The notes beneath the pieces were generated by a model, which was given only the letters and a program-made list of their open reading frames with translations, was not told the DNA's origin and ran no database searches. Made by a program: the position numbers and the translations under genes. From assembly GCA_937901015.1 (NCBI GenBank), contig CALCGQ010000024.1, positions 1 to 32,927 of the forward strand: a stretch of DNA of 32,927 nt. Reading direction: 5' to 3'. Each line of letters begins with the position of its first letter. Within the stretch, counting starts at the first letter, position 1. Source of the stretch: an uncultured Bacteroidota bacterium. Lineage in GTDB: Bacteria; Bacteroidota; Bacteroidia; Bacteroidales; F082. Shown here in pieces: positions 7,208-22,347 of the stretch.

Positions 7208-9301
7208 ATGAAAAATAGTTACTTCAACCTATCCCTTAAGTTCAAATTATTTTACCCCGTCCTAATTGCATTGGTAGCAACCATTATTGTTTTTGCTGTA
7301 TTTCTTGTAAACATTAGTCGTGATTCCATATATCAAATTGCAGAAAACGACATGTTATTGCAAGTTACTACCATTAAAAAAATGTTTGAACGGGAAAGGG
7401 AATTAAAGCTGGAAAAAGTTAAAACAGATTTACGAGTTGCTCACAGGCTATTCTATGATAAAGAACTTATTTTTTCTAGTAAAACAGAAACTGTAATTGC
7501 CACTAATCAGTTTTCGTTAAACACCCACAAGACTGACATAAAGCAACTTCTATGGAATGATGAACCAGTTCTAAACTCGGAAAGATTCCCAGATAATATG
7601 TTTGAACTATTTGGAGGCACTACTACCATTTTTCAAAAAATAGATAGTGGTTTTTTAAGGATTTCCACTAATGTGCTTAAGATAAATGGTGAAAGAGCTG
7701 TTGGTACATTTATTCCGAATACATCAATTGTTGCAAAAACAATAAATCAAGGAGAAATATATTACGGAAGAGCGTTTGTTGTTAACGATTGGTATATAAC
7801 TGCATATGAACCAATATATCTAAACAATATACTCGTTGGAGTACTATATGTTGGCGGAAAAGAGAAAGATATTGAAAAACTGCGACTTACCTTAAATACC
7901 ATAAAAATAGGAAAAACAGGATTTCCTTTTGTTCTTGACAATGATGGTGAAATAGTATTTCAACCTTCTGATTCTAGAAAGAATATAATTGATAACAAAT
8001 TCAAAGAACTAATACTACAGGATAGCGTTGATATAAAGAAATTCAAAAGTTCAGTTAATAATGAAACGTATCTAATTGCCTCCGATTATTATGATGATTT
8101 TGGTTTTCATATTGTTACGGCAATTCCCGGTAAAGAACTTACCTATGTTCCCATTAGGAGTATTATGGTTAATTCGGCAATTATTGGAACCATTTTAGTC
8201 CTATTACTGATGATTCTTATGTTGTCGACAACTACGCCAAGGGTTCACCGATTATTAAATGCAATAAGACTGAGTAATACAAAACTTCAAACCACAAAAC
8301 AAGCTCTAAAACAAAGTGAGAAGAATTTTGAAACAATATTTCAGAACAGTAGTGATGAGATTTTTGTTAGCGACATACAAGGAAATATAATGGAATTAAA
8401 TGAACAGGCTAGTAAGCTTCTTGAGTATTCAAGAGAAGAACTGCTTGCCATGAATATTCTGGATATAAAACCATTAAAGCAAGCTGAATTATTTCTTGTA
8501 TACCGAAAAACTATTATAGAAGAAGGTGGTTACTTATTTGATTCTGAATACATAACCAAGTCAGGTGAGACTGTCCCTGTGGAGATAAATAGTAGGGTTC
8601 TTGAATTTAATGGGGAAACCGTAATCCTTAGTATTTCCCGAAACCTTGCAAAACGTAAAGAAATGGAACGCAAGGTATTAAGCGCCGTAATACAAACAGA
8701 AGAGAAGGAGCGTGAACGATTTTCTAAAGACATGCATGATGGTATAGGTCCTCTTCTGTCAACCGTTAAACTCTATGTAAATGAGTTGGGATCCGCAGAA
8801 ATTGGAGACAAAGAGAAGAAGGAGTTTGTAATTGAGGTTAATAAAATGCTTGACGATGCTGTGAGCAGTATCCGTGAAATTTCGAATAATTTAATGCCGA
8901 GGGTAATTCATGAATATGGATTAGTAAAAGCATTGGAAGCCTTTTGTCAGAAAGTAAATCAAACTGGTAAAATACATGTGGAGTTTAATACAACAGGAAT
9001 AGAAAGCACATTGGATAAGAATGTTCAGTTAATACTATTTCGTGTGTTTAGTGAGCTATTAACGAATACCATAAAACATGCCCAAGCTAAGAATGCCTTT
9101 ATCCAATTACAAAAATCCGACGAAAGCATTTCTCTTATTTTTACGGATGATGGCATTGGTTTTAATAGCTCTAAAGTTATGGGAGATAAGAACACCGGAA
9201 TAGGTCTTAAGAGTATCGTAAGCAGAATTAAATCAATAAATGGAAGCTGCGAAATCAGCAGTACTGAGGGTAGTGGATTTAAAATTTCAATTGATATATA
9301 A
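7208..9301 (+). CDS. Cache-PAS sensor histidine kinase, NarL/DegS class
   Basis: 697 aa. TM1 is near residues 14-34 and TM2 near 318-338; the 280-residue segment between is a Cache-type extracytoplasmic sensor (GRAFVVNDWYITAYEPIY, then IGKTGFPFVLDNDGEIV). After a short coiled coil (TKQALKQSEK) comes a PAS domain (about 372-490: IFQNSSDEIFVSDIQGNIME). The HisKA_3 dimerisation domain has ERERFSKDMHDGIGPLLSTV with His510, and the HATPase has LLTNTIKHAQ and DDGIGFN. The next gene, 92 bp on, codes a matching NarL-type regulator, so the pair forms one two-component system. Cache domains usually bind small organic acids or amino acids; the ligand here is unknown. It lies directly upstream of the hydrogenase island, so a regulatory link is possible but not shown. 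Confidence 0.9.
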   Translation: MKNSYFNLSLKFKLFYPVLIALVATIIVFAVFLVNISRDSIYQIAENDMLLQVTTIKKMFERERELKLEKVKTDLRVAHRLFYDKELIFSSKTETVIATNQFSLNTHKTDIKQLLWNDEPVLNSERFPDNMFELFGGTTTIFQKIDSGFLRISTNVLKINGERAVGTFIPNTSIVAKTINQGEIYYGRAFVVNDWYITAYEPIYLNNILVGVLYVGGKEKDIEKLRLTLNTIKIGKTGFPFVLDNDGEIVFQPSDSRKNIIDNKFKELILQDSVDIKKFKSSVNNETYLIASDYYDDFGFHIVTAIPGKELTYVPIRSIMVNSAIIGTILVLLLMILMLSTTTPRVHRLLNAIRLSNTKLQTTKQALKQSEKNFETIFQNSSDEIFVSDIQGNIMELNEQASKLLEYSREELLAMNILDIKPLKQAELFLVYRKTIIEEGGYLFDSEYITKSGETVPVEINSRVLEFNGETVILSISRNLAKRKEMERKVLSAVIQTEEKERERFSKDMHDGIGPLLSTVKLYVNELGSAEIGDKEKKEFVIEVNKMLDDAVSSIREISNNLMPRVIHEYGLVKALEAFCQKVNQTGKIHVEFNTTGIESTLDKNVQLILFRVFSELLTNTIKHAQAKNAFIQLQKSDESISLIFTDDGIGFNSSKVMGDKNTGIGLKSIVSRIKSINGSCEISSTEGSGFKISIDI

Positions 9302-9393: not shown

Positions 9394-10044
9394 ATGGATA
9401 ATTCTGTAGATATAATTATTGTTGACGACCACGAAATCTTTCGGAATGGTCTGAAAATGGTATTGGGCAAGCTCGACTATGCAAAAGTTGTAGGTGAAGC
9501 TTCAAATGGACAGGAATTTCTTGATCTCATACGCCAAGTTACTTGTGACATTGTTCTTATGGATATTGAAATGCCAATTATGTCAGGTATTGATGCCACT
9601 ATTATTGCTTTAAAAGAGAATCCTGAATTGAAAGTTATTTCACTTACGATGTTTACCGACGACAACTATGTACAGAGTATGATGGATGCAGGAGTTAAAG
9701 GATTTCTTGTTAAGAATATCAATAAAGACACACTAAACAAGGCAATTACCACAGTCGCAGGAGGAGGAAATTACTATTCAGAGGAATTATTCAAATTCTT
9801 TACTCGCAAACTAAATACAAAAGAGGATACCAACAAATCAGACGAAGTTAAATTTACCGCTCGTGAAAAAGAGATACTTCAACTCCTTTCAGAAGGATTA
9901 AGTAATAAGGAAATTGCAGACATTCTGTATGTTAGCGAACGAACTGTAGTAGGTCATAAATCAAATATGCTGGCAAAAACGGGTTGTAAAAGTGCAATAA
10001 GCCTACTTGCATACGCACTGCGTCACAAACTGATTATCATATAG
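9394..10044 (+). CDS. NarL/FixJ-family response regulator
   Basis: 216 aa with a receiver domain followed by a LuxR-type helix-turn-helix. In the receiver, the acidic pair Asp11/Asp12 (IIIVDDHEIF), phosphoacceptor Asp57 (IVLMDIEMP), the Ser/Thr of SLTMFTDD and Lys of FLVKNI are all present. The C-terminal domain (about 150-210) reads FTAREKEILQLLSEGLSNKE then IADILYVSERTVVGHKSNM, a textbook LuxR HTH. It should be phosphorylated by the Cache-PAS kinase coded just before it and act as a transcription factor. It is the only complete DNA-binding regulator near the hydrogenase island, whose first gene starts 174 bp downstream. Confidence 0.92.
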   Translation: MDNSVDIIIVDDHEIFRNGLKMVLGKLDYAKVVGEASNGQEFLDLIRQVTCDIVLMDIEMPIMSGIDATIIALKENPELKVISLTMFTDDNYVQSMMDAGVKGFLVKNINKDTLNKAITTVAGGGNYYSEELFKFFTRKLNTKEDTNKSDEVKFTAREKEILQLLSEGLSNKEIADILYVSERTVVGHKSNMLAKTGCKSAISLLAYALRHKLIII

Positions 10045-10218: not shown

Positions 10219-10716
10219 ATGGAAAACTTAAAGAAAATTGTAATCGTAGATGACGATATTGACATCATCGCTGCTGTTGAATCAATACTAACTGCTAAAG
10301 GATATAAAGTACTTTCAGCAAATGACAAAAAAGAAGGATTAGCATTAATTATGAAAGAAAACCCAGATTTGGCGATTCTTGATGTAATGATGACTACTCA
10401 ATTCGAAGGATTTGAATTAGCCGAAGAAATGGCAAAAAATGCTACACTAAGTCATATTCCAGTTATTATTCAAACTTCTATTGAAGTACTGACTACCACA
10501 AAACCAAGTGTTCAGGCAATGGCTCAGCAGTTCCGACAAAACCCTGATTACTCTGATCTTCGTGTAATTCTTGTTAAAGATATTCTAACTGGAAACGCTG
10601 GAGTTGACTATCTAAATGAAAATAACGAAGGAGTTTGGTTCCCAGTAAGTGCGTTCGTTAAAAAACCTGTGAATGCAGCAGTTCTTCTTCCAGAGATTGA
10701 AAAACTTATCAAATAA
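10219..10716 (+). CDS. Stand-alone receiver-domain protein, first gene of the hydrogenase island
   Basis: 165 aa, a single receiver domain with no output domain. It has IVIVDDDID (Asp11-Asp13), phosphoacceptor Asp55 in LAILDVMM, IIQTS as the strand-4 Thr/Ser, and Lys-Pro at FVKKPV. Between the last two lies an enlarged segment of about 60 residues (VQAMAQQFRQNPDYSDLRVI and on) where typical receivers have about 22. This resembles receivers often found next to [FeFe] hydrogenase genes, although that is recalled rather than searched. It starts 37 nt before hydC and is probably cotranscribed. Likely job: to accept phosphate from the hydrogenase-kinase coded downstream and pass it on or act by protein contact. 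The sequence around its start (TAGAGCAATGGAAAA) recurs at 17392, the start of the receiver-kinase hybrid. Confidence 0.85.
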   Translation: MENLKKIVIVDDDIDIIAAVESILTAKGYKVLSANDKKEGLALIMKENPDLAILDVMMTTQFEGFELAEEMAKNATLSHIPVIIQTSIEVLTTTKPSVQAMAQQFRQNPDYSDLRVILVKDILTGNAGVDYLNENNEGVWFPVSAFVKKPVNAAVLLPEIEKLIK

Positions 10717-10753
10717 TAAATTTAGTACTAACCCTGAAAACAAGCTTTTCAAA

Positions 10754-11218
10754 ATGGGAGATATTAAGCAAATATTTAATAAATACCCCGAAGCAGGTCG
10801 TGATAACCTGATTCCAATTTTACAGGATATACAATCTGTTGATGGGTATTTATCAAAAGAGTCCATCATAAAGGTAGGTGCACATCTGGATATTCCTTCA
10901 AGTAAAATATTCGGAGTAGCAACTTTTTATAATCAGTTTAGATTCCAACCAAATGGAAAATACCATGTTCAGGTATGTAGAGGAACTGCATGCCATGTAT
11001 TGGGATCTGTAACTGTATTACAGGAAATCGAAAAACAGTTAAAAGTTAAGGCTGGTGATACAACTCGAGATGGTTTATTCAGTATCGAAGTTGTTGCATG
11101 TATTGGTGCTTGCGGACTTGCTCCTGTTATTGCTATTAACGGAGAATTTTACGCAAAAGTAAGTGCAGCTTCACTTGCTGAAATAATTGAGTCCTATAAA
11201 AATAAGGAGGATGAGTAA
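10754..11218 (+). CDS. hydC: NuoE-like [2Fe-2S] subunit of NAD-linked [FeFe] hydrogenase (HydC)
   Basis: 154 aa, the thioredoxin-fold [2Fe-2S] subunit (NuoE family, 24-kDa type). Ligand cysteines are Cys75, Cys80, Cys116 and Cys120 (VCRGTACHVLG; CIGACGLAP), the standard CX4C...CX3C set. In HydABC hydrogenases this subunit sits on HydB near the flavin. The start is ATG 10754 (MGDIKQIFNKYPEAGRDNLI); an upstream in-frame extension overlaps the receiver gene and lacks family similarity. The stop overlaps the hydB start by one base (TAATG), indicating tight coupling. Some authors exchange the names of HydA/B/C subunits; here HydC means the NuoE-like one. Confidence 0.93.
   Translation: MGDIKQIFNKYPEAGRDNLIPILQDIQSVDGYLSKESIIKVGAHLDIPSSKIFGVATFYNQFRFQPNGKYHVQVCRGTACHVLGSVTVLQEIEKQLKVKAGDTTRDGLFSIEVVACIGACGLAPVIAINGEFYAKVSAASLAEIIESYKNKEDE
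11204..11210 (+). promoter_or_regulatory. Strong Shine-Dalgarno sequence for hydB
   Basis: AAGGAGG, 7 nt before the hydB ATG at 11218, inside the 3' end of hydC. Such sites are rare in Bacteroidota, which seldom use the anti-Shine-Dalgarno pairing. The same bases also code Asn-Lys-Glu-Asp-Glu, so coincidence is possible. Confidence 0.45.
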
Positions 11219-13152
11219 TGGAGAGAATTGAAGGAAATATAGAAAGCCTACTCATAAATAAGGTTGCAAATGTTGAAGTTGACACTGAAACTAAACTATC
11301 CTTATTAAAAAGAGAAAAAGTTGAGAAACCTGTTATTTATCTTGGAGCTGGTACTTGTGGACTTGGCGCTGGTGCAGGTAAAACATTGGAAAGCATTAAA
11401 TCATATCTAAACACAAACTCCATTGATGCTGAAATAGTTGAAGTAGGCTGTATTGGATTATGTGCTGCTGAACCTATAGTTGACATTCAGCTACCAGATC
11501 ACAATAGAGTTTCATTTAGTAAGGTAACAAGTGAAAAAGTGGATAGTCTAATGGACTCTATTTTTAATCTTGAACTACCCGAAGAAATTGATGTTCAGTA
11601 TCAATTTCCAATTGATCAAAACAGATCATGGGAAGGTGTTACAACATTTAGCGAACATCCATATTTTAAAAATCAAATGCGCATCGTACTTCAAAACTGT
11701 GGTTCAGTTAACCCGGTTAGTATTGATGAGTACATTGCAATTGGCGGATACACATCATATTTATCAACCATCAATACTTTCAATTCAGAGGAAGTATGCG
11801 ATATGGTTGAGAAAAGTGGATTAAGAGGCCGTGGTGGTGGTGGTTTTACCACAGGAGCAAAATGGAAATTTGCACTAAATACACCAGCAGAACAAAAATA
11901 TTTAATCTGTAATGCAGATGAGGGTGACCCTGGTGCATTTATGGATAGAGCAATCATCGAAGGTGATCCACATCGTCTACTTGAAGGTATGATGATCGCT
12001 GCATTTGGAATAGGAGCAACAAAATCTTACGTGTATATAAGAGCTGAATATCCACTTGCAATTGAACGATTAGATATCGCTATTAAACAAGCAAGAGAAT
12101 ATGGATTACTAGGGAAAGACATATTTGGTAGTGGAATTGATTTCGACATCAAAGTAAAAATGGGTGCTGGTGCATTTGTTTGTGGTGAAGAAACAGCTCT
12201 AATAAAAAGTGTTGAAGGTAAAAGAGGAATGCCAATACCACGTCCTCCGTTTCCAGCAGTAAAAGGATTATTTGGAAAACCTACAATTATCAATAATGTA
12301 GAAACCCTTTCATGTCTTCGCGAAATTATTCCTCACGGTGTTGATTCATTTAGCTCAATTGGAACCGCGAAAAGTAAAGGAACAAAAGTATTCGCACTTT
12401 CCGGCAAGGTTACCTTAACTGGTCTTGTTGAAGTCCCAATGGGAACAACTATCAGACAAGTAATTTTTGATATTGCAGGTGGAATACCAAACAATAAAAA
12501 GTTCAAATCTGTTCAAATTGGTGGACCATCAGGTGGTTGTATTACTGAAGAGAATTTAGATATTGAAGTGGATTATGATTCCTTAATTAGCATAGGTGCT
12601 ATGATGGGTTCTGGTGGATTAGTTGTAATGGATGAGGACACATGTATGGTTGATGTGGCTAAATTCTTTATGGATTTTATACAAAGAGAAAGCTGTGGAA
12701 AATGTATCCCATGTCGTGAAGGAACCAGAAGGATGCTTGAAATTCTTGAAAGCATTACTCATAAACCAATTAATGCTGCTCAAAATGAGGCATTGGAAAG
12801 ATTTAAAGGTGTTACTCAACTTGAAAAACTTGGAAGAGTAATCAAAGAAACATCTCTTTGTGGACTTGGTCAAACTGCTCCAAACCCAGTATTAAGCACA
12901 CTTCATTGGTTTAGAAATGAATATGAAGAGCATATTTTCGACAGAAAATGCCGCGCTAATGTTTGTACAGAACTAAGGACATTTACCATCGATGTAGACA
13001 AATGTACAGGTTGTACTATTTGTGCGAAGAAATGCCCTACAGATGCAATTATTGGCAGTCGTAAGCAACCACATTTTGTTGTTGATGATAAATGTATCAG
13101 CTGTGGAACTTGCTTTGATGTTTGTAAATTCGATTCAATTGTTATCTCTTAA
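11218..13152 (+). CDS. hydB: NuoF-like flavin/Fe-S subunit of NAD-linked [FeFe] hydrogenase (HydB)
   Basis: 644 aa, the NAD(H)- and FMN-binding subunit. Order of domains: a thioredoxin-like [2Fe-2S] part (GTCGLGAGAGKT near 46; CIGLCAAEP near 80), the NuoF core with FMN loop GLRGRGGGGFTTGAKW (about 201-216) and NADH motif NADEGDPGAFMDR, the SLBB part, a [4Fe-4S] site with Cys493, Cys496 and Cys499 (SCGKCIPCREG) plus the later CGLG cysteine, and two C-terminal [4Fe-4S] ferredoxin motifs (CTGCTICAKKCP; CISCGTCFDVCK). This extended form is typical of the HydB of trimeric electron-bifurcating hydrogenases (T. maritima type) and of NADP-reducing hydrogenases. It would pass electrons between NADH and ferredoxin/H-cluster. 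HydA follows after 12 nt. Confidence 0.95.
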   Translation: MERIEGNIESLLINKVANVEVDTETKLSLLKREKVEKPVIYLGAGTCGLGAGAGKTLESIKSYLNTNSIDAEIVEVGCIGLCAAEPIVDIQLPDHNRVSFSKVTSEKVDSLMDSIFNLELPEEIDVQYQFPIDQNRSWEGVTTFSEHPYFKNQMRIVLQNCGSVNPVSIDEYIAIGGYTSYLSTINTFNSEEVCDMVEKSGLRGRGGGGFTTGAKWKFALNTPAEQKYLICNADEGDPGAFMDRAIIEGDPHRLLEGMMIAAFGIGATKSYVYIRAEYPLAIERLDIAIKQAREYGLLGKDIFGSGIDFDIKVKMGAGAFVCGEETALIKSVEGKRGMPIPRPPFPAVKGLFGKPTIINNVETLSCLREIIPHGVDSFSSIGTAKSKGTKVFALSGKVTLTGLVEVPMGTTIRQVIFDIAGGIPNNKKFKSVQIGGPSGGCITEENLDIEVDYDSLISIGAMMGSGGLVVMDEDTCMVDVAKFFMDFIQRESCGKCIPCREGTRRMLEILESITHKPINAAQNEALERFKGVTQLEKLGRVIKETSLCGLGQTAPNPVLSTLHWFRNEYEEHIFDRKCRANVCTELRTFTIDVDKCTGCTICAKKCPTDAIIGSRKQPHFVVDDKCISCGTCFDVCKFDSIVIS

Positions 13153-13164
13153 AACCTCAAAAAA

Positions 13165-14889
13165 ATGGACTTTACAATAAATGTAAATAATAACGAGTTT
13201 CAAGCAACACAAGGGGAAACCATCCTTGAGGTACTAAATAAAAACGGTATTAAAGTACCTACTTTGTGTCATCTTAAAAATTCAATGCCAACGGGGGCTT
13301 GCCGTATGTGTGTTGTTGAAGATGAGCAAACAGGTAAACTAATTACTTCATGCTCATTCCCTGCTAATCCAGGAATGAAAATCAAAACACATAGCCAGAG
13401 AGTTGTTGAATCCAGAAAGACAATCATTGAGCTTCTGCTTTCAAATCATCCTGATGACTGCCTATATTGTGTGAGAAATAAAAACTGTGAACTTCAGGAC
13501 CTAAGTGAAGAACATCATGTTAGGGAAAGAAGAATCAGAGGTTACAAGAATAGTGAGAAACTAGATCTTTCTAGTGCATCAATTGTAAGAGATCCTGAGA
13601 AATGTGTTCTTTGTGGAAGATGTGTTGTTGTTTGTGAAGAAGTAATGGGAGTAGCTTGTATCGATTTTGTAAATCGTGGAAACAAATCTATCATCGGAAC
13701 TTCTTTCAATCAAGGTCTAAATACTTCAAGTTGTATTAACTGTGGACAATGTATTATGGTTTGTCCAACTGGTGCTCTCACAGAGAAAAACCACTTTCCC
13801 GAGATTCAGCAAGCGCTTAATGATCCGGCAAAAAGAGTTGTTATTCAATATGCTCCATCAATCAGTGTTTCAATGGCTGAAGAGCTTGGAATGGAACAAG
13901 GCAAAGATATAAATGGTATTCTTAATGCAGCTCTTCGCAAGGTTGGATTCAACAATGTTTTTGATTCATCATTCTCTGCCGACCTTACAATTATGGAAGA
14001 GTCAGCTGAGTTGATTCAACGTATTACCGAAGGTGGTACACTACCGATGATTACCAGCTGCTGCCCAGGTTGGGTTAAGTATGCTGAAGAATTTTATTCA
14101 GATTTAATTCCAAACCTAAGTTCTTGCAAATCACCACAACAAATGATGGGTGCTGTTATTAAATCATATTTTGCAGAACAAGAAGGATTAAAACCTGAAG
14201 AGATTTATTCTGTGGCAATTATGCCATGTACTGCGAAAAAATTTGAAGCTCAGCGAGAAGAAATGACACAGGCAGGAATCTCAGATGTGGATGCTGTTCT
14301 TACAACTAGAGAACTTACTAAGTTCCTAAAACTTTATGGAGTTGATATGTTCAATATCAAACCTGAGTTAACTGACTCTCCAATGGGATTCAGAAGTACT
14401 GCTGGTAAACTATTTGGTGCATCAGGTGGAGTTATGGAAGCTGCAATTCGCACAGCTCATTTTAAACTAACAGGTAAAGAACTTGTTAATTTCCAGATCC
14501 CTCAAATTAGAGGTCTTGAAAAACGCAAGGAAGCTAAAATGAAAATTGGTGATCTGGAACTTGGAGTAGCCGTTGTAAACGGAATGGCAAACGCAAGAGA
14601 ACTACTTGATGAAATAAAGAATGGTCGTAATGATATCCATTTTGTGGAAGTTATGGCATGCCCAGGTGGCTGCATAGGTGGTGGTGGTCAGCACATTGGT
14701 ACCAGCCATGAACAGCTAAAAGCGAGAATGAAAACTCTTTATAAAATTGATGAAAATGAAACCCTTAAGGTAAGTCATAAAAATCCGGAAATTATTGAGT
14801 TATATGATAACTTTCTTGGAGAGGCCGGAGGGCACAAGAGTCATGAGTTATTGCATACCAAATATAAAAAACGTGAAGTGATGATATAA
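13165..14889 (+). CDS. hydA: [FeFe] hydrogenase catalytic subunit (HydA), group A, M3 type
   Basis: 574 aa, makes or oxidises H2 at the H-cluster in the cytosol. It starts with a plant-type [2Fe-2S] domain (CHLKNSMPTGACRMC), then a His-Cys3 [4Fe-4S] site (HPDDCLYCVRNKNC), then two [4Fe-4S] motifs (CVLCGRCVVVCE; CINCGQCIMVCP). The H-domain has all canonical residues: Cys299 (proton relay) and Cys300 in TSCCPGW, Met353 and Cys355 in MPCTAKK, Cys499 and Cys503 in MACPGGCIGGGGQ; the numbers coincide with C. pasteurianum CpI. With the NuoE- and NuoF-like partners this indicates a HydABC complex of the bifurcating/confurcating group A3, coupling H2 to both NADH and ferredoxin. Whether it really bifurcates cannot be proved from sequence. 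Confidence 0.97.
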   Translation: MDFTINVNNNEFQATQGETILEVLNKNGIKVPTLCHLKNSMPTGACRMCVVEDEQTGKLITSCSFPANPGMKIKTHSQRVVESRKTIIELLLSNHPDDCLYCVRNKNCELQDLSEEHHVRERRIRGYKNSEKLDLSSASIVRDPEKCVLCGRCVVVCEEVMGVACIDFVNRGNKSIIGTSFNQGLNTSSCINCGQCIMVCPTGALTEKNHFPEIQQALNDPAKRVVIQYAPSISVSMAEELGMEQGKDINGILNAALRKVGFNNVFDSSFSADLTIMEESAELIQRITEGGTLPMITSCCPGWVKYAEEFYSDLIPNLSSCKSPQQMMGAVIKSYFAEQEGLKPEEIYSVAIMPCTAKKFEAQREEMTQAGISDVDAVLTTRELTKFLKLYGVDMFNIKPELTDSPMGFRSTAGKLFGASGGVMEAAIRTAHFKLTGKELVNFQIPQIRGLEKRKEAKMKIGDLELGVAVVNGMANARELLDEIKNGRNDIHFVEVMACPGGCIGGGGQHIGTSHEQLKARMKTLYKIDENETLKVSHKNPEIIELYDNFLGEAGGHKSHELLHTKYKKREVMI

Positions 14890-14984: not shown

Positions 14985-16976
14985 ATGAACTACATTAATC
15001 TGGACGACATACTTGTTTATACTGTTAAGGATCGCTGCCGCGTATGCTATACATGTGTGAGAGAATGCCCGGTTAAAGCCATTAAGATTATAAATGGCCA
15101 AGCTGAGGTTATGCCCGAAAGATGTATCGCATGTGGTAATTGTGTAAATATGTGTAGCCAGGGAGCAAAAACATTCAATAAACATTTAAATAAGGTTGAT
15201 GCGCTCCTACGCAAAGATAATAATGTAATTGCTGCTGTTGCTCCAAGTTTTCCAGCAGAATTTACTGAGATTGACACTACCGGACAATTTGTAGGGATGA
15301 TTAGAAAATTAGGTTTTAGCAAAGTGGTAGAAGTATCCTTTGGCGCGGACCTTGTTGCAGATCAATACAATGAACTATTGCAAAAGAACTCGGGCGTTTC
15401 ATATATCTCCTCCGATTGCCCCGCTGTGGTGGCCTGTATTGAAAAGCATCATCCTGATCTAGTCAAAAACCTAGCTCCAATTGTGTCTCCTATGGTAGCA
15501 ATTGGGCGGGTAATTAAGAAAAAATATTCTGAAGATGTAAATATCGTATTCATCGGACCTTGCATTGCTAAAAAAGGTGAGTCTGATGAAATTGATTATT
15601 CCATAACTTTTACAGAGTTGAGGCAGATCTTCCTGTCAAAAGGGATAACACAAGACACAGTAGTTCATAGTGAGTTTGACCCTCCAACTTCTGGAAAAGG
15701 ATCAATTTTTCCAGTTAGTCATGGCTTGTTAAACACCATGGGGCTAAAATCAGATGTAACAGAATGTGATATCATTGTAGCTGATGGTAAAAAGAATTTC
15801 ATGGATGCCCTTAATGAATTTGAAAAAGGCAATCTTGATGGAAAACATCTTAACTTACTTTGCTGTGATGGTTGTATCATGGGTCCGGGAATGTCAAAAA
15901 ATGGCAGTAGACTAAACAGAAAAAACAGAATTTCTGATTATGCTAAAAATAAGCTGAGTAAACTGGATACCAAAGAGTGGGAAGAACAAATTAAAGAATT
16001 TGAAACCTTGGATTTCTCAAGGACGTTCAATCCTGAAGATAGAAGACAATACCTTCCCTCAGAACAAGAAATAACAAATGCATTAAAAAAGATCGGCAAA
16101 TTTGATCATATGGATCACCTTAACTGCAAAGCTTGTGGTTATGATACTTGCCGTGAACATGCAATAGCAATCATTAATGGTTTTGCTGAAAATGAGATGT
16201 GTTTACCTCATTCAATTGAGATTATGCATCAAACCATTAACAATCTAAATGTTACCAATGATAAGCTGGCAACTGCTCGTCAGGCTCTGAAGCAATCTGA
16301 AAAACTTGCCAATATGGGTCAGCTTTCAGCAGGGATTGCTCATGAGTTAAACAATCCACTAGGAGTTATTTCAATGTACAGCAATATCCTTAAGGATGAG
16401 TCAAAGGATGGTGATCCCATTAGAGAAGACCTTGATTTAATTGTTGAACAAGCCGACAGATGTAAAAAAATTGTTGGCGGATTGTTAAATTTTGCAAGGA
16501 AAAACCAGATTGTTACAACTAAGACAGACATAATTGAATTTTGTCGTCGAAGCTTACAGTCGATTGTAATACCATCAAATATTACTACCAAGTTTATCTC
16601 AAAAACAGAAAAGCTTGAAGCAGATATTGATAAAGATCAAATGATGCAAGTTCTTACTAATCTTGAGAAAAATGGTATTGATGCAATGCCCGATGGTGGT
16701 CATCTGAGTATTAAAGTAGAAGATTTAGTAACCGTGTTTGAAATTACAATTTCAGATGAAGGTTGTGGTATAGCTGAAGAAAATATGGATAAGATATTTA
16801 CTCCATTCTTCACAACAAAAGGAATTGGAAAAGGCACAGGCATGGGCCTTCCATTAGTTTATGGAATAGTAAAAATGCACAAGGGACAAATTAATGTAAA
16901 ATCGAATACCGACAAAGATCTTGGTCCCACAGGAACAAGTTTTGCAATTCGATTACCAAAAAAACCAATTATTTAA
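14985..16976 (+). CDS. Sensory [FeFe] hydrogenase-histidine kinase fusion (HydS-like, group C type)
   Basis: 663 aa, soluble. Two [4Fe-4S] motifs (CRVCYTCVRECP; CIACGNCVNMCS, residues 18-58) precede an H-cluster domain (about 80-370). The four H-cluster cysteines are kept: Cys145 (SSDCPAV), Cys193 (GPCIAKK), Cys293 and Cys297 (CCDGC). The proton-relay Cys of HydA (TSCC) is Asp144 here, and the Met of MPC is Gly, so fast turnover is unlikely, as expected for a sensor. Then come a Cys-rich PF04060-like Fe-S motif (CKACGYDTC, near 382), a short coiled coil, HisKA with His453 (AGIAHELNNPLGVI) and HATPase (NLEKNGIDAM; TGMGLPLVYGIV). No PAS domain or membrane segment is present. It should sense H2 or redox state and start phosphotransfer to the receivers coded next to it. 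Family assignment is recalled, not searched. Confidence 0.93.
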   Translation: MNYINLDDILVYTVKDRCRVCYTCVRECPVKAIKIINGQAEVMPERCIACGNCVNMCSQGAKTFNKHLNKVDALLRKDNNVIAAVAPSFPAEFTEIDTTGQFVGMIRKLGFSKVVEVSFGADLVADQYNELLQKNSGVSYISSDCPAVVACIEKHHPDLVKNLAPIVSPMVAIGRVIKKKYSEDVNIVFIGPCIAKKGESDEIDYSITFTELRQIFLSKGITQDTVVHSEFDPPTSGKGSIFPVSHGLLNTMGLKSDVTECDIIVADGKKNFMDALNEFEKGNLDGKHLNLLCCDGCIMGPGMSKNGSRLNRKNRISDYAKNKLSKLDTKEWEEQIKEFETLDFSRTFNPEDRRQYLPSEQEITNALKKIGKFDHMDHLNCKACGYDTCREHAIAIINGFAENEMCLPHSIEIMHQTINNLNVTNDKLATARQALKQSEKLANMGQLSAGIAHELNNPLGVISMYSNILKDESKDGDPIREDLDLIVEQADRCKKIVGGLLNFARKNQIVTTKTDIIEFCRRSLQSIVIPSNITTKFISKTEKLEADIDKDQMMQVLTNLEKNGIDAMPDGGHLSIKVEDLVTVFEITISDEGCGIAEENMDKIFTPFFTTKGIGKGTGMGLPLVYGIVKMHKGQINVKSNTDKDLGPTGTSFAIRLPKKPII

Positions 16977-16986
16977 ATTAACTGTC

Positions 16987-17379
16987 ATGTTGGAGGAAAA
17001 AAAATTAGTATTAATTGTAGATGACGATCCGGATTATTTGTTTCAAATGAAACATCATGTTGAAAGCTTTGGTTTTAATGTTGTTACTGCAGAGAGCGTT
17101 GCAGAAGCTGAAAAAGCCTTGGTTAACAAACCTGATCTAGCAATACTAGATCTTATGATGGAAACACAAGATGCAGGATTTGTACTAGCATACAAAATAA
17201 AGAGAGATTATCCTGATGTTCCTGTAATTATTGCTTCGGCCGTAACTTCCGAAACAGGTCTGAATTTTAATCTTGATACAGAGCAGGATAAAAAATGGAT
17301 TAAAGCTGACCTCTACCTTGAAAAAGGAATTAGAAGTGATCAGCTACATAGAGAAATCAGCAAACTGCTTAAATTATAA
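16987..17379 (+). CDS. Stand-alone receiver-domain protein
   Basis: 130 aa with no output domain. Acidic residues are in LIVDDDPDY, phosphoacceptor Asp55 is in LAILDLMM, strand-4 Ser in IIASAVTS, and Lys in YLEKGI. The LAILDxMMxTQ block is shared with the first receiver of the island (10219), so the two are paralogues; this one has a smaller strand 4-5 insertion. The start ATG 16987 (MLEEKKLVLIVDDDPDYLF) lies 10 nt after the sensor-kinase stop; a longer frame reaching back into the kinase gene is not credible. Most likely it is the direct partner of the sensory hydrogenase-kinase, and may work as a phosphate relay or a protein-binding switch. Confidence 0.87.
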   Translation: MLEEKKLVLIVDDDPDYLFQMKHHVESFGFNVVTAESVAEAEKALVNKPDLAILDLMMETQDAGFVLAYKIKRDYPDVPVIIASAVTSETGLNFNLDTEQDKKWIKADLYLEKGIRSDQLHREISKLLKL

Positions 17380-17398: not shown

Positions 17399-18517
17399 AT
17401 GGAAAAGTTAAAAGTATTAGTAGTAGATGATGAGCCAGGAATCCGATCAGGAGTAGTTCGAATCTTAAAAAACTACACAATCGGCTTCCCTTTTATGGAA
17501 GAAGACTTTTCTTTTGACATAATTGAAGCTGAAACAGGTGAAATAGCTCTGGAAATCATTGAAAATGAAGGAGCTGACATTGTCCTGCTTGACAATAAGC
17601 TTCCTGGTATTCAAGGCATTGATGTGTTGGAGAAAATCAGCAAGATGCGTATAGATACAGCCGTAATGATGATAACATCATACGCATCACTCGACATCGC
17701 TGTAAAAGCTACAAACTTTGGTGCTTACAACTTCGTACCAAAGCCTTTTACTCCGGATGAGCTAAAATCATCAATCGAAAATATTAGCAAGCACCTCTTC
17801 CTTAAAAGGATGACTAGTGCCATGAAAGAAGAAGGAAAACAAATACGTTTTCAGTTTCTATCAGTGCTGTCACATGAGCTTAAATCTCCATTAAATGCTA
17901 TAGAAGGCTATTTGAAGATAATGGAAGAGAAGCAAGTTGGTGAAAATATTGATGATTATATGTCGATGATCGATAGATCAATGGTCAGAATAAAGGGGAT
18001 GCGAAATTTAATTATTGACATGCTTGATCTTACTCGCCTTGAATCAGGTAAGAAAAAGAGAAAACTTCATGAAGTTGAAATTCATCAACTAGCAACCCTG
18101 GCCATTGATACTATCAAACCAATGGCAATACAACATAATATTACCATCAAACCAGATATTGATGAGAGTATTGTTATGGAAGCAGATCATGATGAGTTGG
18201 AAATAATATTCAATAACCTTCTTTCAAATGCCGTTAAGTATAATCGTGATGGTGGCGAAGTTCGTATTAGTATCCAGAAAATCAACAACGTTGTTACATT
18301 AACAGTATCTGATACTGGTATTGGAATCAGTGATGATGATCTGCCTAAGCTATTTGAAGAGTTTTCACGTATCAAAAACAGTGATACACGGAATATTAGC
18401 GGAACAGGCCTTGGATTGTCAATAACAAAGAAAATGGTTGAGCTCTATAATGGTACTATTACCGTAGATAGCAAACCTAATTTTGGCACAACATTCACAG
18501 TAAAGATGCCAATATAA
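17399..18517 (+). CDS. Receiver-histidine kinase hybrid
   Basis: 372 aa, soluble. An N-terminal receiver (LVVDDEPGIRSG; phosphoacceptor Asp65 in IVLLDNKLPG; Thr in MITSYAS; Lys-Pro in FVPKPF) is followed by HisKA (FLSVLSHELKSPLNAIEGYL) and HATPase (NNLLSNAVKYN; DTGIGIS; GTGLGLSI). The order receiver-then-kinase means its kinase activity is probably controlled by phosphorylation from another kinase, here most simply the sensory hydrogenase-kinase. The start at ATG 17399 lies 19 nt after the previous stop; an upstream in-frame extension overlaps that gene and has no domain. No output or DNA-binding domain follows; the next relay partner must lie elsewhere. About 60 bp separate it from hydG. Confidence 0.9.
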   Translation: MEKLKVLVVDDEPGIRSGVVRILKNYTIGFPFMEEDFSFDIIEAETGEIALEIIENEGADIVLLDNKLPGIQGIDVLEKISKMRIDTAVMMITSYASLDIAVKATNFGAYNFVPKPFTPDELKSSIENISKHLFLKRMTSAMKEEGKQIRFQFLSVLSHELKSPLNAIEGYLKIMEEKQVGENIDDYMSMIDRSMVRIKGMRNLIIDMLDLTRLESGKKKRKLHEVEIHQLATLAIDTIKPMAIQHNITIKPDIDESIVMEADHDELEIIFNNLLSNAVKYNRDGGEVRISIQKINNVVTLTVSDTGIGISDDDLPKLFEEFSRIKNSDTRNISGTGLGLSITKKMVELYNGTITVDSKPNFGTTFTVKMPI

Positions 18518-18579: not shown

Positions 18580-20007
18580 ATGAAATTCACTCCTGAAATA
18601 TATAATATACCTGATAAGCCACAAAAGCCATATATCGATGTGGATGAAATATGGGGCTATCTAAATAATGCTAAACCTACTGATAATAGGGTTGAGGAAA
18701 TTGTTACAAAATCCCTTAATAAAGAGAGACTTAACCTTGAAGAGGTTGCTACACTTATAAAGGCTGACAAACCAGGCCAGATAGAGCTAATAAAAAATGG
18801 AGCCCGTCAACTTAAGGAAAGAGTGTATGGCAAAAGAATAGTGCTTTTTGCTCCTCTTTACGTTGGTAATCTTTGTCAGAACAATTGTGAATACTGCGGC
18901 TTTAAAGCCACTAATAGCGAAACCGTACGCAAAACTCTAGACAAAGCAGAACTCATTAATAATGTTGAGGCTCTTGAGAAGAATGGACAAAAACGCCTAA
19001 TTCTTGTTTATGGTGAACATCCAAAATATACACCTGATTATATTGCTGATAATGTAAAAACTGTTTATGGTGTTAAAACCGGAAATGGTGAAATCAGAAG
19101 GGTGAATATAAATGCAGCACCTTTAAGTATTGAAGGATTTAAAACAGTTAAAGATGCCGGTATTGGAACCTACCAGGTTTTTCAGGAAACATATGAACCT
19201 GAAGCCTATCGCAGGTATCATAAGGGTGGTAGAAAATCAGCATACGATAATCGTTTAGTTGCTCTCGATAGAGCTCAGGAAGCAGGACTCGATGATGTTG
19301 GTATTGGTGTACTTTTTGGTTTAGCTGATTGGAGATTTGACGTTATGGGACTTGTCCGACATACAAATCACCTTGAAGCATGTTATAATGTTGGCCCTCA
19401 CACTATTTCATTTCCAAGATTACAGGATGCTGCCGAGTTTAAAGTAGACCCTGAATATGCTGTAAGTGATGATGAGTTTACAAGAATCGTAGCTATCCTT
19501 CGGCTTGCCGTTCCCTACACAGGAATGATACTTACAGCTCGTGAGCCAATGCATATTCGTAAGGAAGTATTACAATATGGTGTATCTCAAATAGATGCCG
19601 GCACAAAAATAGAAATGGGTGCTTATACTGAAGAAGAGAAAAAGCCTCAGGATTTAAATCAGGAACAATTTCTAATCAATGATGATCGTTCACTGGGAGA
19701 AGTTATTAATGAGCTTCTTGAAGGAGACTATCTTCCATCATTCTGCACAGCGTGCTATCGCAAAGGAAGAACAGGCGAGCATTTTATGGAATTCTCAGTG
19801 CCTGGATTCATAAAAAGATTCTGCACTCCAAATGCTATTCTCACTCTTGCTGAATACATTATGGATTATGCAAAGGAAGATACAGCTATTAAAGGCTGGA
19901 AACTAATTGATAAGAATGTAAGTAGTTTGAATGAACCAAAGCTTGAAGCATCTGTAAAGATGAAAATTGATCGAATAAAACAAGGACAAAGAGATTTGTA
20001 CTATTAA
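18580..20007 (+). CDS. hydG: [FeFe] hydrogenase H-cluster maturase HydG (tyrosine lyase, radical SAM)
   Basis: 475 aa. HydG splits tyrosine into p-cresol and dehydroglycine, giving the CO and CN- ligands of the H-cluster. The radical-SAM cysteines are Cys99, Cys103 and Cys106 (CQNNCEYC, the CX3CX2C form). The second cluster, where the Fe(CO)2CN synthon forms, is held by Cys389, Cys392 and Cys415 (CTAC, then 22 residues, Cys), the exact HydG spacing. Length and the N-terminal helical part are normal for the family. HydF starts 10 nt downstream. Its position in the same operon as structural hydrogenase genes supports that both HydA and the sensory homologue receive an H-cluster. Confidence 0.97.
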   Translation: MKFTPEIYNIPDKPQKPYIDVDEIWGYLNNAKPTDNRVEEIVTKSLNKERLNLEEVATLIKADKPGQIELIKNGARQLKERVYGKRIVLFAPLYVGNLCQNNCEYCGFKATNSETVRKTLDKAELINNVEALEKNGQKRLILVYGEHPKYTPDYIADNVKTVYGVKTGNGEIRRVNINAAPLSIEGFKTVKDAGIGTYQVFQETYEPEAYRRYHKGGRKSAYDNRLVALDRAQEAGLDDVGIGVLFGLADWRFDVMGLVRHTNHLEACYNVGPHTISFPRLQDAAEFKVDPEYAVSDDEFTRIVAILRLAVPYTGMILTAREPMHIRKEVLQYGVSQIDAGTKIEMGAYTEEEKKPQDLNQEQFLINDDRSLGEVINELLEGDYLPSFCTACYRKGRTGEHFMEFSVPGFIKRFCTPNAILTLAEYIMDYAKEDTAIKGWKLIDKNVSSLNEPKLEASVKMKIDRIKQGQRDLYY

Positions 20008-20017
20008 TTGGTGAGTG

Positions 20018-21244
20018 ATGAAAAAAGGAAAGGATCTTAAGCCACATATTGGAATTTTTGGAAGAAGAAATAATGGTAAAAGTTCTTTTATCAACATGAT
20101 TACAGGTCAGGATGTTGCAATTGTTTCAGAACAAGCGGGAACAACCACCGATCCTGTTAAAAAATCCGTAGAGATTTTTGGAATTGGTCCTGTTATAATT
20201 ATTGATACTGCCGGAGTTGATGATGTGGGTGAATTAGGGAAAAAGAGAATCGACAAAACCATGGCAATGGTTAACAACATCGACCTGGCAGTACTTTTAA
20301 TCACTGATAATACATTTGGTTCATTTGAAAAGGATTTGATCAAGGATTTCGAAAAACTTGACATTCCTTATTTGATATTTCATAATAAATCAGATGCCAC
20401 ACCTCTGTTAAAAGAGACTAGTGTAATAATAAAAGAAGAAACTGGAAAAGATTCTCTCGATATTGTAACCTTAACGGATGCATTTGTTACAAAAGTTACT
20501 GACCTGATGAGAGACGCAATTCCCAAATCTGTTTATATAAAAACATCACTATTGGAAGGTCTCATTACGGAAAAAGATATTGTACTATTAATAACACCAA
20601 TCGACTCCGAAGCTCCTGAAGGTAGAATGATTCTTCCTCAACAAATGGCAATTAGAGATGTTCTAGACCATAATTGTATTTGTATCACAGTAAGGGAAAC
20701 AGAACTTGATGATTTTTTGAAACTAGGAATCAAGCCCTCATTAGCAATTACTGATAGCCAGGCATTTGGAATGGTTTCTAGTATTATACCAGAGGATATT
20801 CCATTAACAGGTTTTAGTATTGTTTTCGCTCGTATGAAAGCGAATTTTGATAAATATCTGGAGGGAACTCCACATATTTCAAAGTTGAAAGATGGTGACA
20901 AGGTTCTTATTCTTGAATCATGCACTCATCATGTTAGTTGTGAAGATATAGGTCGATTTAAACTACCAGATTGGATAACAAAATTTACTGGCAAAAAAAT
21001 TAAATATGATGTGGTTGCCGGACTTGATAGCTTAAAAGTAGACATCAACGAATATGCAATAGTAATCCAGTGTGGTGGTTGTGTTGTTACAAAAAAGCAA
21101 CTATCCAACAGATTAAAACCTGCAATCGATGCTGGAATTCCAGTATCAAATTACGGCATGGCGATAGCATATATGAATGGGATCTTTGAACGAGCTGTAG
21201 CACCATTTTTAAATATCAGTGAAAAACCTAAATCTGATTCTTAA
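20018..21244 (+). CDS. hydF: [FeFe] hydrogenase maturase HydF (GTPase/scaffold)
   Basis: 408 aa. HydF is the scaffold on which the 2Fe precursor is assembled and from which it is delivered to HydA. It has an N-terminal GTPase with P-loop GRRNNGKSS, TTTDP switch, DTAG and HNKSD, a dimerisation domain, and a C-terminal cluster site: Cys302 and His304 (CTHH) and Cys352, Cys355 (QCGGC). The family motif CxH...HCxxC usually has His before the CxxC; here it is Gln351, so one potential ligand is missing. The start is ATG 20018; a GTG directly before it is possible but adds only one residue. HydE follows after 20 nt. Confidence 0.95.
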   Translation: MKKGKDLKPHIGIFGRRNNGKSSFINMITGQDVAIVSEQAGTTTDPVKKSVEIFGIGPVIIIDTAGVDDVGELGKKRIDKTMAMVNNIDLAVLLITDNTFGSFEKDLIKDFEKLDIPYLIFHNKSDATPLLKETSVIIKEETGKDSLDIVTLTDAFVTKVTDLMRDAIPKSVYIKTSLLEGLITEKDIVLLITPIDSEAPEGRMILPQQMAIRDVLDHNCICITVRETELDDFLKLGIKPSLAITDSQAFGMVSSIIPEDIPLTGFSIVFARMKANFDKYLEGTPHISKLKDGDKVLILESCTHHVSCEDIGRFKLPDWITKFTGKKIKYDVVAGLDSLKVDINEYAIVIQCGGCVVTKKQLSNRLKPAIDAGIPVSNYGMAIAYMNGIFERAVAPFLNISEKPKSDS

Positions 21245-21264
21245 ATATCCTAGAAAAGACTAAT

Positions 21265-22347
21265 ATGACTAAAGTTTGCCGTATACTAACTCAGGATCGA
21301 TTCGACAAAGAATCAATCATTACCCTTCTAAATGCTGAAGGTAGTGATCGTGATCTTCTGTTTGTAAAGGCAACAGAAGTTAAACAGGAATATATTGGTA
21401 ATAAGGTTCATCTCCGCGGATTAATTGAACTCACAAATCGTTGTTCGAAAAACTGCTACTATTGTGGAATTGGGGCCTCCAATAAAAATATTAATCGATT
21501 TATGGTTAGCTTGCCTGAAGTTGAAAAGGCAATTCAATTTACCTACAACAATAACTATGGTTCAATAGTTATCCAAACGGGGGAACTACAAAGTGAAAGC
21601 TTTACTGCAGCAATCGAAGATATACTTCAATCTATTAATAAAATTAGTGATGGAAAATTAGGTGTTACACTTTCATGTGGCGAACAAAGCAAAGAGACTT
21701 ATCAGCGATGGAAAAATGCCGGAGCTGACCGTTATCTTCTACGTATTGAATCTTCAGATCGAGAATTATACTACAAATTACATCCAAAAGATAAAAAACA
21801 CGATTTTGACACAAGGTTGGCAGCACTGAAATCTTTAAAGGAATGTGGATATCAAACAGGTACTGGAGTGATGATAGGCTTACCTTTTCAAACCATTGAA
21901 AATCTTGCTGAAGACTTATTATTCATGCAGAATTTCAACATTGACATGGTTGGAATGGGTCCATATATAGAACATATTGACACTGAATTATACAAGTACA
22001 AAGATCTGGTTCCTTCAAAGGAAAAGAGAGTGGATTTAAGCCTTAAGATGATCGCTATTTTGCGTATTATGATGAAAGATATAAACATTGCGGCAACAAC
22101 AGCAATGCAGACTCTCATTGATGGTGGAAGAGAAATGGCATTGAAATCTGGAGCCAATATTATGATGCCAAACACAACTCCAGGACTCTATAGAGAACAA
22201 TATGCTCTCTACAATGATAAACCAGGATTAGATGAAGAGGCGGAAGATAGTAAACAATCAATTGAAAAATTAATTAACCGAGCCGGATGTATTGTTGCTT
22301 ATGGAGAACAGGGAAACTCCAAGCATTATAAGGTTCGAACATCATAG
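21265..22347 (+). CDS. hydE: [FeFe] hydrogenase maturase HydE (radical SAM)
   Basis: 360 aa. HydE is the radical-SAM enzyme that converts the HydG product into a dinuclear precursor on the route to the azadithiolate-bridged 2Fe cluster. Radical-SAM cysteines are Cys60, Cys64 and Cys67 (CSKNCYYC) after LRGLIELTNR. The barrel continues with IQTGE, TLSCGEQ, LLRIESSD, GVMIGLPFQT and MVGMGPYIEH, all typical of HydE; biotin synthase would differ here. No extra [2Fe-2S] cysteine triplet is visible near the C-terminus, which is acceptable as that cluster is dispensable in the family. Last gene of the island, closed by an intrinsic terminator. Confidence 0.95.
   Translation: MTKVCRILTQDRFDKESIITLLNAEGSDRDLLFVKATEVKQEYIGNKVHLRGLIELTNRCSKNCYYCGIGASNKNINRFMVSLPEVEKAIQFTYNNNYGSIVIQTGELQSESFTAAIEDILQSINKISDGKLGVTLSCGEQSKETYQRWKNAGADRYLLRIESSDRELYYKLHPKDKKHDFDTRLAALKSLKECGYQTGTGVMIGLPFQTIENLAEDLLFMQNFNIDMVGMGPYIEHIDTELYKYKDLVPSKEKRVDLSLKMIAILRIMMKDINIAATTAMQTLIDGGREMALKSGANIMMPNTTPGLYREQYALYNDKPGLDEEAEDSKQSIEKLINRAGCIVAYGEQGNSKHYKVRTS

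Follow-up and report, generated by a model that had tools for sequence, protein, structure and literature searches.

The locus and its genes

The window (the whole stretch of DNA that was analysed, 32,927 nucleotides from an uncultured bacterium of the Bacteroidota) carries on its forward strand a gene for a putative H2 sensor, referred to here as HydS-HK, together with the following neighbours:

10673 to 14889, forward strand: hydC, hydB and hydA, for a trimeric NAD-linked (bifurcating-type) [FeFe] hydrogenase (domain and model matches)
14985 to 16976, forward strand: HydS-HK, an ORF of 663 amino acids, putative H2 sensor in which an [FeFe]-hydrogenase is fused to a histidine kinase (ORF listing and Pfam)
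16987 to 17379, forward strand: stand-alone receiver (REC only), its start ATG at 16987 chosen inside an ORF listed from 16921 (Pfam)
17399 to 18517, forward strand: Rec-HK (receiver, HisKA and HATPase), its start ATG at 17399 chosen inside an ORF listed from 17273 (Pfam)
18580 to 22347, forward strand: hydG, hydF and hydE, H-cluster maturation genes (each above its NCBIfam cut-off)

The hydA gene passes the model for NADH-dependent group A6 enzymes (796.1 bits, cut-off 765), and HydA and HydS-HK are the only two H-domain proteins in this genome, which is 84.85% complete and in which no HydS paralogue without a kinase was found. Just upstream of hydC lie what we judge by eye to be a putative second sensor kinase, at 7208-9301, and, at 9394-10044, a regulator of LuxR type, together with a lone receiver (10219-10716, Pfam); in 13 of 63 related neighbourhoods there is a receiver whose best match is this last protein.

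A preliminary description of this DNA had claimed an ORF at 14985-16976 on the forward strand for a hydrogenase-kinase fusion of sensor type without PAS. The ORF listing contains it, and Pfam bears out the fusion, with no PAS domain detected in HydS-HK at E 0.001 and with the following parts:

15036 to 15155, forward strand: two N-terminal [4Fe-4S] motifs, Cys18/21/24/28 and Cys47/50/53/57 (Pfam Fer4)
15222 to 15887, forward strand: H-cluster domain Fe_hyd_lg_C, residues 80-301 (Pfam, E 1.4e-50)
16116 to 16208, forward strand: C-terminal Fe-S domain PF04060, residues 378-408, with Cys381/384/389/406 (Pfam, E 1.3e-8)
16314 to 16505, forward strand: HisKA (DHp) domain, residues 444-507, with His453 (Pfam)
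16629 to 16964, forward strand: HATPase_c catalytic domain, residues 549-660 (Pfam)

The cysteines of the N-terminal motifs show no variation in either of two alignments (23 rows and 52 rows). Structure prediction, which had been proposed earlier as a check, gives the H-domain the fold of an [FeFe] hydrogenase: in an AF2 model of the monomer (52-sequence alignment, mean pLDDT 86.5, pTM 0.65) a structural search matched this domain to CbA5H (8zqd; Z 39.6, 2.4 A, 342 residues) and to CpI (4xdc; Z 37.0, 2.9 A, 347 residues). These [FeFe]-hydrogenase matches lie mainly within residues 2-353, which leaves the Fe-S domain at the C-terminal side barely covered by the fold comparison. The kinase half of the model resembles the cytoplasmic domain of ZraS (9jfj_A, TMt 0.79) and scores 177.6 bits with the AtoS model and 155 bits with the ZraS model, both far under the curated cut-offs.

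Relatives and their surroundings

The sample combines relatives of the window, a draw from the Bacteroidota, draws from the phyla of three loci (L115, L082 and L074) and the 80 best, at 79 distinct loci, of at least 502 confirmed matches; the Firmicutes and Thermotogota lie outside the sample, and no Thermotoga title occurs among the 79 distinct loci from the best 80 matches listed. Full-length matches were found in 22 of 61 genomes among the relatives (source genome included), matches at 1e-60, kinase-fused or not, in 20 of 296 genomes of the Bacteroidota draw, and matches in 4 of 251, 25 of 247 and 18 of 246 genomes of the other three phylum draws, in the order of the loci given above. Rows of fewer than ~250 aligned residues or less than 150 bits were removed before counting. 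The resulting 133 kinase-fused sequences include HydS-HK and have been freed of exact copies only, so that many are related to one another and near-copies such as L119 and L153 remain; deduplicated sets hold 113 sequences at 80% and, from a smaller sample, 91 at 95%. The 63 kinase-fused sequences at named loci carry 16 phylum names, with 6 unassigned, these names being taken from deposited titles, mostly of MAGs, of which some are possibly misnamed.

In a census of homologues of this contig's neighbours, which were named by best BLAST match to its proteins with receivers assigned loosely, and which a conserved DNA-binding regulator could escape, hydC, hydB and hydA lie upstream in 38 of the 45 named loci whose upstream flank is 6 kb or longer. 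Downstream, a Rec-HK is present in 42 of the 44 named loci that have 3 kb of flank or more (it is absent from L068 and L119), and a similar receiver in 36 of the 44, or 38 if upstream copies are counted. A HydS paralogue without a kinase is found near 17 of the 63 kinase-fused genes, on the opposite strand in 15 cases.

PAS is absent from every kinase-fused relative sampled. Of the 17 relatives analysed with Pfam, 15 have no kinase, and several of these 15 are also without PAS. The outputs of the relatives without kinase include PAS (for example L030 and L141), a chemoreceptor signalling domain (L040), several PAS domains with a SpoIIE phosphatase (L041 and L042) and a sigma-54 activator with HTH (L168 and L172); L027, L033 and L096 show no further Pfam domain. 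The proteins at L168:1492-3792 and L172:1381-3804, in which sensor hydrogenase and Fe-S domain are followed by the sigma-54 activator and a Fis-type HTH, look by their domain content like one-protein H2-responsive transcription activators. An AAA+ motif is present in seven sequences without kinase, and six such rows of the tree have His at the position of Cys299 (see below).

Ligand positions of the H-cluster

Three short stretches of the H-domain hold the residues of most concern:

15414 to 15419, forward strand: Asp144, at the position of Cys299 (proton relay), and Cys145, at a ligand position (profile alignment, counts and tree)
15555 to 15563, forward strand: Gly191 (position of Met353), Pro192 and Cys193, at a ligand position (profile alignment and residue counts)
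15861 to 15875, forward strand: L3 motif C293-C294-D-G-C297, with ligand positions Cys294 and Cys297 and an extra Cys293 (profile alignment and residue counts)

A profile of the kinase-fused sensors, for which hhalign used 106 of the 133 supplied, was aligned with 114 HydA-type sequences, the HydA of the same contig being the alignment partner, and the aligned positions bear residue numbers of CpI. The profiles pair Cys145 with Cys300, Cys193 with Cys355, Cys294 with Cys499 and Cys297 with Cys503; they also pair Asp144 with Cys299, Gly191 with Met353, Leu292 with Met497 and Cys293 with Ala498. The preliminary description had assigned the ligands to Cys145, 193, 293 and 297 and regarded Cys294 as an extra cysteine next to Cys293. 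The alignment, itself one of the checks proposed there, agrees with Cys145, Cys193 and Cys297 but exchanges the roles of the other two: Cys145, Cys294 and Cys297 occur in 133 of 133 kinase-fused sequences and Cys193 in 132 (HydS-HK included), and the residue at position 293 is C in 69, F in 43, A in 9, S and Y in 5 each and T and M in 1 each. Cys293, which aligns with Ala498 and is Cys in just 69 of the 133, was rejected as a ligand. The fixed cysteines are not a matter of chance, because their positions persist while identity to HydS-HK drops to 37%. The H-cluster would be held by Cys145, Cys193, Cys294 and Cys297.

The spacing from Cys294 to Cys297 is CX2C in 132 of the 133 kinase-fused sequences and CX3C, as in the prototype, in one; the L3 loops of 45 deduplicated sequences without kinase comprise 24 CX2C, 13 CX3C and 8 that lack one or both cysteines. 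This loop, one residue shorter than that of the prototype, and the loss of ligands from some paralogues of ~620 amino acids elsewhere might suggest that HydS-HK is a relic scaffold in which the [2Fe] subcluster is no longer bound. We hold this to be very improbable in view of the ligand cysteines kept in 132-133 of 133 sequences and of the maturases encoded in the same cluster. The presence of hydEFG in the gene cluster and the pairing with the ligands of HydA would support the reading of HydS-HK as an H-cluster sensor.

Several side observations concern the same region. The kinase-fused homologue with the prototype-like CX3C loop is L091:1236-3284. Just before the L3 motif, Asn290 (15852-15854) occupies a position that is E or D in 122 of the 133 kinase-fused sequences and that matches Glu289 of TamHydS by motif. 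HydS paralogues of ~620-650 amino acids without kinase (L049:1273-3144, L050:1775-3724, L053:1778-3646, L060:1312-3165, L046:1257-3116 and L023:728-2674) have at least one H-cluster cysteine missing and their accessory-cluster cysteines mostly or all kept, and to judge from these residues they are possibly hydrogenase-dead sensors. The C1 proteins of Hydrogenedentota are reported to have a HATPase domain and the C3 proteins PAS or a kinase, and in the C1 proteins the H-cluster motifs were reportedly hardly detectable with published signatures (PMC11406978); our guess is that a CX2C loop might be the reason.

The position of the proton relay

The correspondence of Cys299 to Asp144 and of Met353 to Gly (Gly191), as first described, is borne out by the profile alignment with HydA-type sequences. 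It had also been proposed that the relay cysteine was "lost" and an Fe-S link to the kinase "gained", as if by special events, and this part cannot be upheld. A Cys299 that is not conserved and a C-terminal Cx2Cx4Cx16C motif are published traits of M2e and M2f alike (PMC8163306; PMC10055695), that is, of the sensory groups C and D, and Asp144 and the C-terminal Fe-S domain are for this reason not a recent loss and gain. None of 136 deduplicated sequences (91 kinase-fused and 45 without kinase) has Cys at position 144, and the motif cysteines are also found in the relatives without kinase (Cys381, Cys384 and Cys389 in 45 of 45 and Cys406 in 44, the gap being the truncated gene L066).

Among the 133 kinase-fused sequences position 144 is occupied by D in 46, S in 21, T and P in 20 each, A in 15, F in 5, N in 4 and Q and V in 1 each; for sensory enzymes at large, Cys has been reported at position 299 in 17%, Ala in ~43% and Pro and Ser in ~10% each (PMC10055695). 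All 34 of the Asp144 rows in a quick tree of 175 rows group together (SH-aLRT 87, not starred) within a starred set of 35 that includes one Asn row, and Asp144 marks a single clade of Bacteroidota.

Asp144 is a natural counterpart of the C299D relay mutants made in the laboratory. The C299D/C169D variants are reported to keep 30-80% of H2 release, with a shifted pH optimum (PMC6226526), and Asp144 need not therefore mean a lost relay. H2 uptake by C169D was just 1-2% (PMC6226526), and the Cys-to-Asp swap is described as tilting the enzyme toward H2 evolution, its rate of H2 oxidation being 0.02-4% of the wild-type value (PMC9563086). A sensor based on Asp144 would therefore be slow in H2 oxidation, and the very low rates of the laboratory relays may be a reason to doubt that Asp144 serves H2 sensing as an efficient relay.

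The C-terminal Fe-S domain

The CX2CX4C motif near residue 382 that had been noted between hydrogenase and kinase is present (PF04060) but is incomplete as first given: the full motif is CX2CX4CX16C, with Cys406 as the fourth cysteine. It had been proposed that electrons from the H-cluster reduce this C-terminal [4Fe-4S] cluster, whose redox state would then switch the kinase via the adjoining helix. The cluster does stand directly before the kinase helix, all four cysteines are present in 91 of 91 deduplicated kinase-fused sequences, and the proposal is compatible with the phased helix described below. The literature holds, as far as we found, no redox measurement for the HydS-HK lineage; what speaks against a redox wire comes from TamHydS of group D, in which the C-terminal cluster is reported not to be reduced under 1 atm H2 at pH 6-8, the C379A variant keeps its activity, and the secondary structure changes with H2 though this cluster stays unreduced (PMC13104023). 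Two residues of TamHydS, D378 and D403, are thought to lower the potential of the cluster (PMC13104023) and have been argued to keep it oxidised. By cysteine spacing they match Asn380 and Met405 of HydS-HK (of the 133 kinase-fused sequences, 101 have N and 32 have D at position 380, and 127 have M and 6 have Y at position 405), and the TamHydS result does not settle the matter for HydS-HK because this Asp pair is replaced. On balance we regard switching by the redox state of the C-terminal cluster as unlikely, perhaps one chance among several.

A linker in register

The segment that joins the Fe-S domain to the kinase is as follows:

16203 to 16343, forward strand: linker from Leu407 to the phospho-acceptor His453, a seven-residue-phased helix of 47 residues (length counts and AF2 helices)

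The distance from Cys406 to the histidine is 33 in 4 kinase-fused sequences, 40 in 26, 47 in 97 and 54 in 6, and thus equal modulo 7 in 133 of 133; after deduplication at 80% the corresponding numbers are 3, 24, 81 and 5 (n=113). Other stretches of the same proteins, for which the distances depend on MAFFT gap placement, are off register in 81 of 132 (C57-C145), 7 of 133 (C145-C193, which hardly varies), 87 of 133 (C193-C294), 25 of 133 (C297-C381) and 73 of 130 sequences (H453-G595), with C28-C47 constant in 131. A register control with the Rec-HK proteins (length 44 in 79 of 80 and 60, out of register, in 1) is too uniform to help. In the 47-residue class (94 distinct linkers) five positions spaced by seven are LIVMF in 99-100%, and in the 40-residue class four heptad positions are LIVMF at 96-100%; the few 33-residue linkers (n=4) have two such positions at 100%, and the 54-residue linkers (n=6) have one heptad position at 0%. 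The AF2 model has a helix at 407-431 directly after Cys406 and another at 439-472, with low confidence at 431-439.

At least 5 changes of linker length are needed on a FastTree tree of 133 rows and 6 on the quick tree with 113 labelled rows, counts that rest on quickly made trees (55 of 173 inner branches of the quick one are open). Under uniform lengths the chance that six changes are all multiples of 7 would be (1/7)^6, a figure that is only a guide because indels in helices are not uniform in length.

With just 47 residues between the last Fe-S cysteine and His453 there is no space for a PAS in HydS-HK, and the same distance is at most 54 residues in 133 of 133 kinase-fused sequences, none of which hides one. 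An overlooked PAS was rejected on these lengths; kinase G-box patterns were found in 0 of 74 sequences without kinase.

The activity of the LOV kinase YF1 is reported to vary periodically with the length of its linker (period 7), and LOV and phytochrome families to be heptad-periodic (PMC6798134); Rec-HK linkers are said to favour multiples of seven (PMC13269768), and several registers to be occupied in natural phytochrome kinases (PMC11164954). Heptad linkers are thus known in other kinases, and the phasing indicates a helix in register and is not proof of an H2 trigger.

A possible course of the signal

How sensory [FeFe] hydrogenases transfer their signal is described as an open question (PMC8163306, PMC13104023), and the receiving end is hard to assay because the chains of the two sensors characterised so far stop at a PAS or at the Fe-S domain. 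HydS-HK has sensor and kinase in one chain, with likely partners adjoining, and makes signal transfer directly testable.

We consider it rather probable that HydS-HK is an H2 sensor of HydDB type C1 whose signal is mechanical and reaches a phosphorelay by way of a phased coiled coil. Its domains, conserved ligand positions, phased linker and conserved gene order can be read from the DNA; beyond these we infer a loaded cofactor, an electron path, a coiled-coil dimer, a response to H2 and the direction of the switch, partners for phosphotransfer and target genes. The protein would be a soluble sensor of H2 (or of H2/H+ poise) that serves the hydrogenase encoded directly upstream. H2 would react, probably slowly, at the H-cluster, and the electrons would pass to the N-terminal clusters. 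As the state of the clusters and the contacts between domains change, they might then displace the C-terminal Fe-S domain, which is located at the place of PAS in other receptors and whose last helix would run on as a coiled coil, phased by seven residues, into the DHp helices. A twist or pivot of this coiled coil would switch the kinase/phosphatase activity of His453, and phosphate would go to the adjoining receiver and/or to Rec-HK, the output of Rec-HK itself presumably lying elsewhere.

We know of no redox acceptor in the kinase, so the last step of signalling should be conformational, and the seven-residue phasing of the linker points that way. Linker lengths that have changed by multiples of 7 throughout, taken with the YF1 precedent (PMC6798134), would support a mechanical switch by analogy, as would the change of secondary structure in TamHydS, a member of another group, without reduction of its C-terminal cluster (PMC13104023). 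Linkers longer by 7 residues are predicted to be functional, and those longer by 1 to 6 residues to fail or invert.

The input might be something other than H2. The N-terminal clusters could conceivably trade electrons with ferredoxin, and TamHydS is reported to have unusual CO and O2 reactivity (PMC8163306); the H-domain might on these grounds be thought to report ferredoxin/NADH poise or O2 damage, with H2 incidental. The retention of the ligand positions and the placement of the gene after hydCBA, by the counts given above, favour H2 as the input, and we regard such a general redox or O2/CO sensor as improbable.

A wider reading, which we advance tentatively and rate at somewhat under an even chance, joins the mechanical sensor to the survey of relatives. 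The Fe-S domain, and not PAS, would be the direct mechanical transducer for the whole lineage of H2-sensing kinases, by way of a register-locked coiled coil; a conserved phosphorelay of receiver and Rec-HK would accompany bifurcating-type hydrogenases in many phyla; one clade of Bacteroidota would be tuned by a natural C299D relay; and the shortened CX2C loop would be common to nearly all kinase-fused members.

Classification and comparison with known systems

By architecture (fused HisKA and HATPase) HydS-HK would belong to HydDB [FeFe] group C1, the "histidine kinase-linked (putative)" part of a group C that is subdivided into kinase-, chemotaxis- and phosphatase-linked enzymes (PMC5037454). 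It shares with group C (M2f) the two N-terminal [4Fe-4S] motifs, the Cx2Cx4Cx16C C-terminal motif, a Cys299 that is not conserved (Asp144) and a small residue for Met353 (Gly191), and it has no PAS after the Fe-S domain. The lack of PAS is a trait of group D (M2e), in which Ser/Thr is expected at Met353; the residue here is Gly191, and it is Gly in 91 of 91 deduplicated kinase-fused sequences. Lacking both the PAS by which M2f is described and the Ser/Thr-353 of M2e, HydS-HK is filed here under neither.

In the titles and abstract openings searched there was no description of heptad phasing or of a CX2C loop in sensory [FeFe] hydrogenases, nor of a receiver/Rec-HK pair with one; likewise we found no earlier description of the clade-wide Asp299. 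The search covered papers available without subscription, and such absences are weak evidence.

Among HisKA kinases, those of the ZraS/AtoS type resemble HydS-HK in the kinase half, including the ZraS fold, and differ in the input module, which in HydS-HK is a hydrogenase. The LvrA-LvrB phosphorelay is similar in that a sensor kinase feeds a Rec-HK, with the preference for linkers of multiples of seven already mentioned (PMC13269768); its inputs and outputs are unrelated, and the pairing of HydS-HK with its Rec-HK is drawn from gene order only.

TmHydS (group C/M2f) has, like HydS-HK, a non-Cys residue at 299 (Ala131), Gly for Met353 (Gly177) and a C-terminal Fe-S cluster (PMC10055695, PMC10407848), but according to these sources a PAS follows its Fe-S domain where HydS-HK has the kinase directly, and residue 299 is Ala rather than Asp. 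TamHydS (group D/M2e) shares the lack of PAS, the layout of clusters and Leu at the position of Met497 (PMC8163306, PMC13104023, PMC10407848). It differs in having Ser/Thr instead of Gly at Met353 and Asp beside the cysteines of the C-terminal cluster where HydS-HK has none. Its relay Glu252 appears, by motif comparison with HydA, to correspond to Leu248 (Leu in 107 of 133 kinase-fused sequences), and these papers describe TamHydS without mention of a kinase in its chain.

A close counterpart, compared by its published description, is the C1 gene ING2E5A_0849 of Petrimonas mucosa, also of the Bacteroidales, which is reported to lie close to hnd genes (PMC7768429); here too a sensory H-domain is tied to a histidine kinase, and a hydrogenase of bifurcating type is encoded nearby. 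Since a C1 gene near hnd genes has been published for that organism, sensors of the kind represented by HydS-HK are already known.
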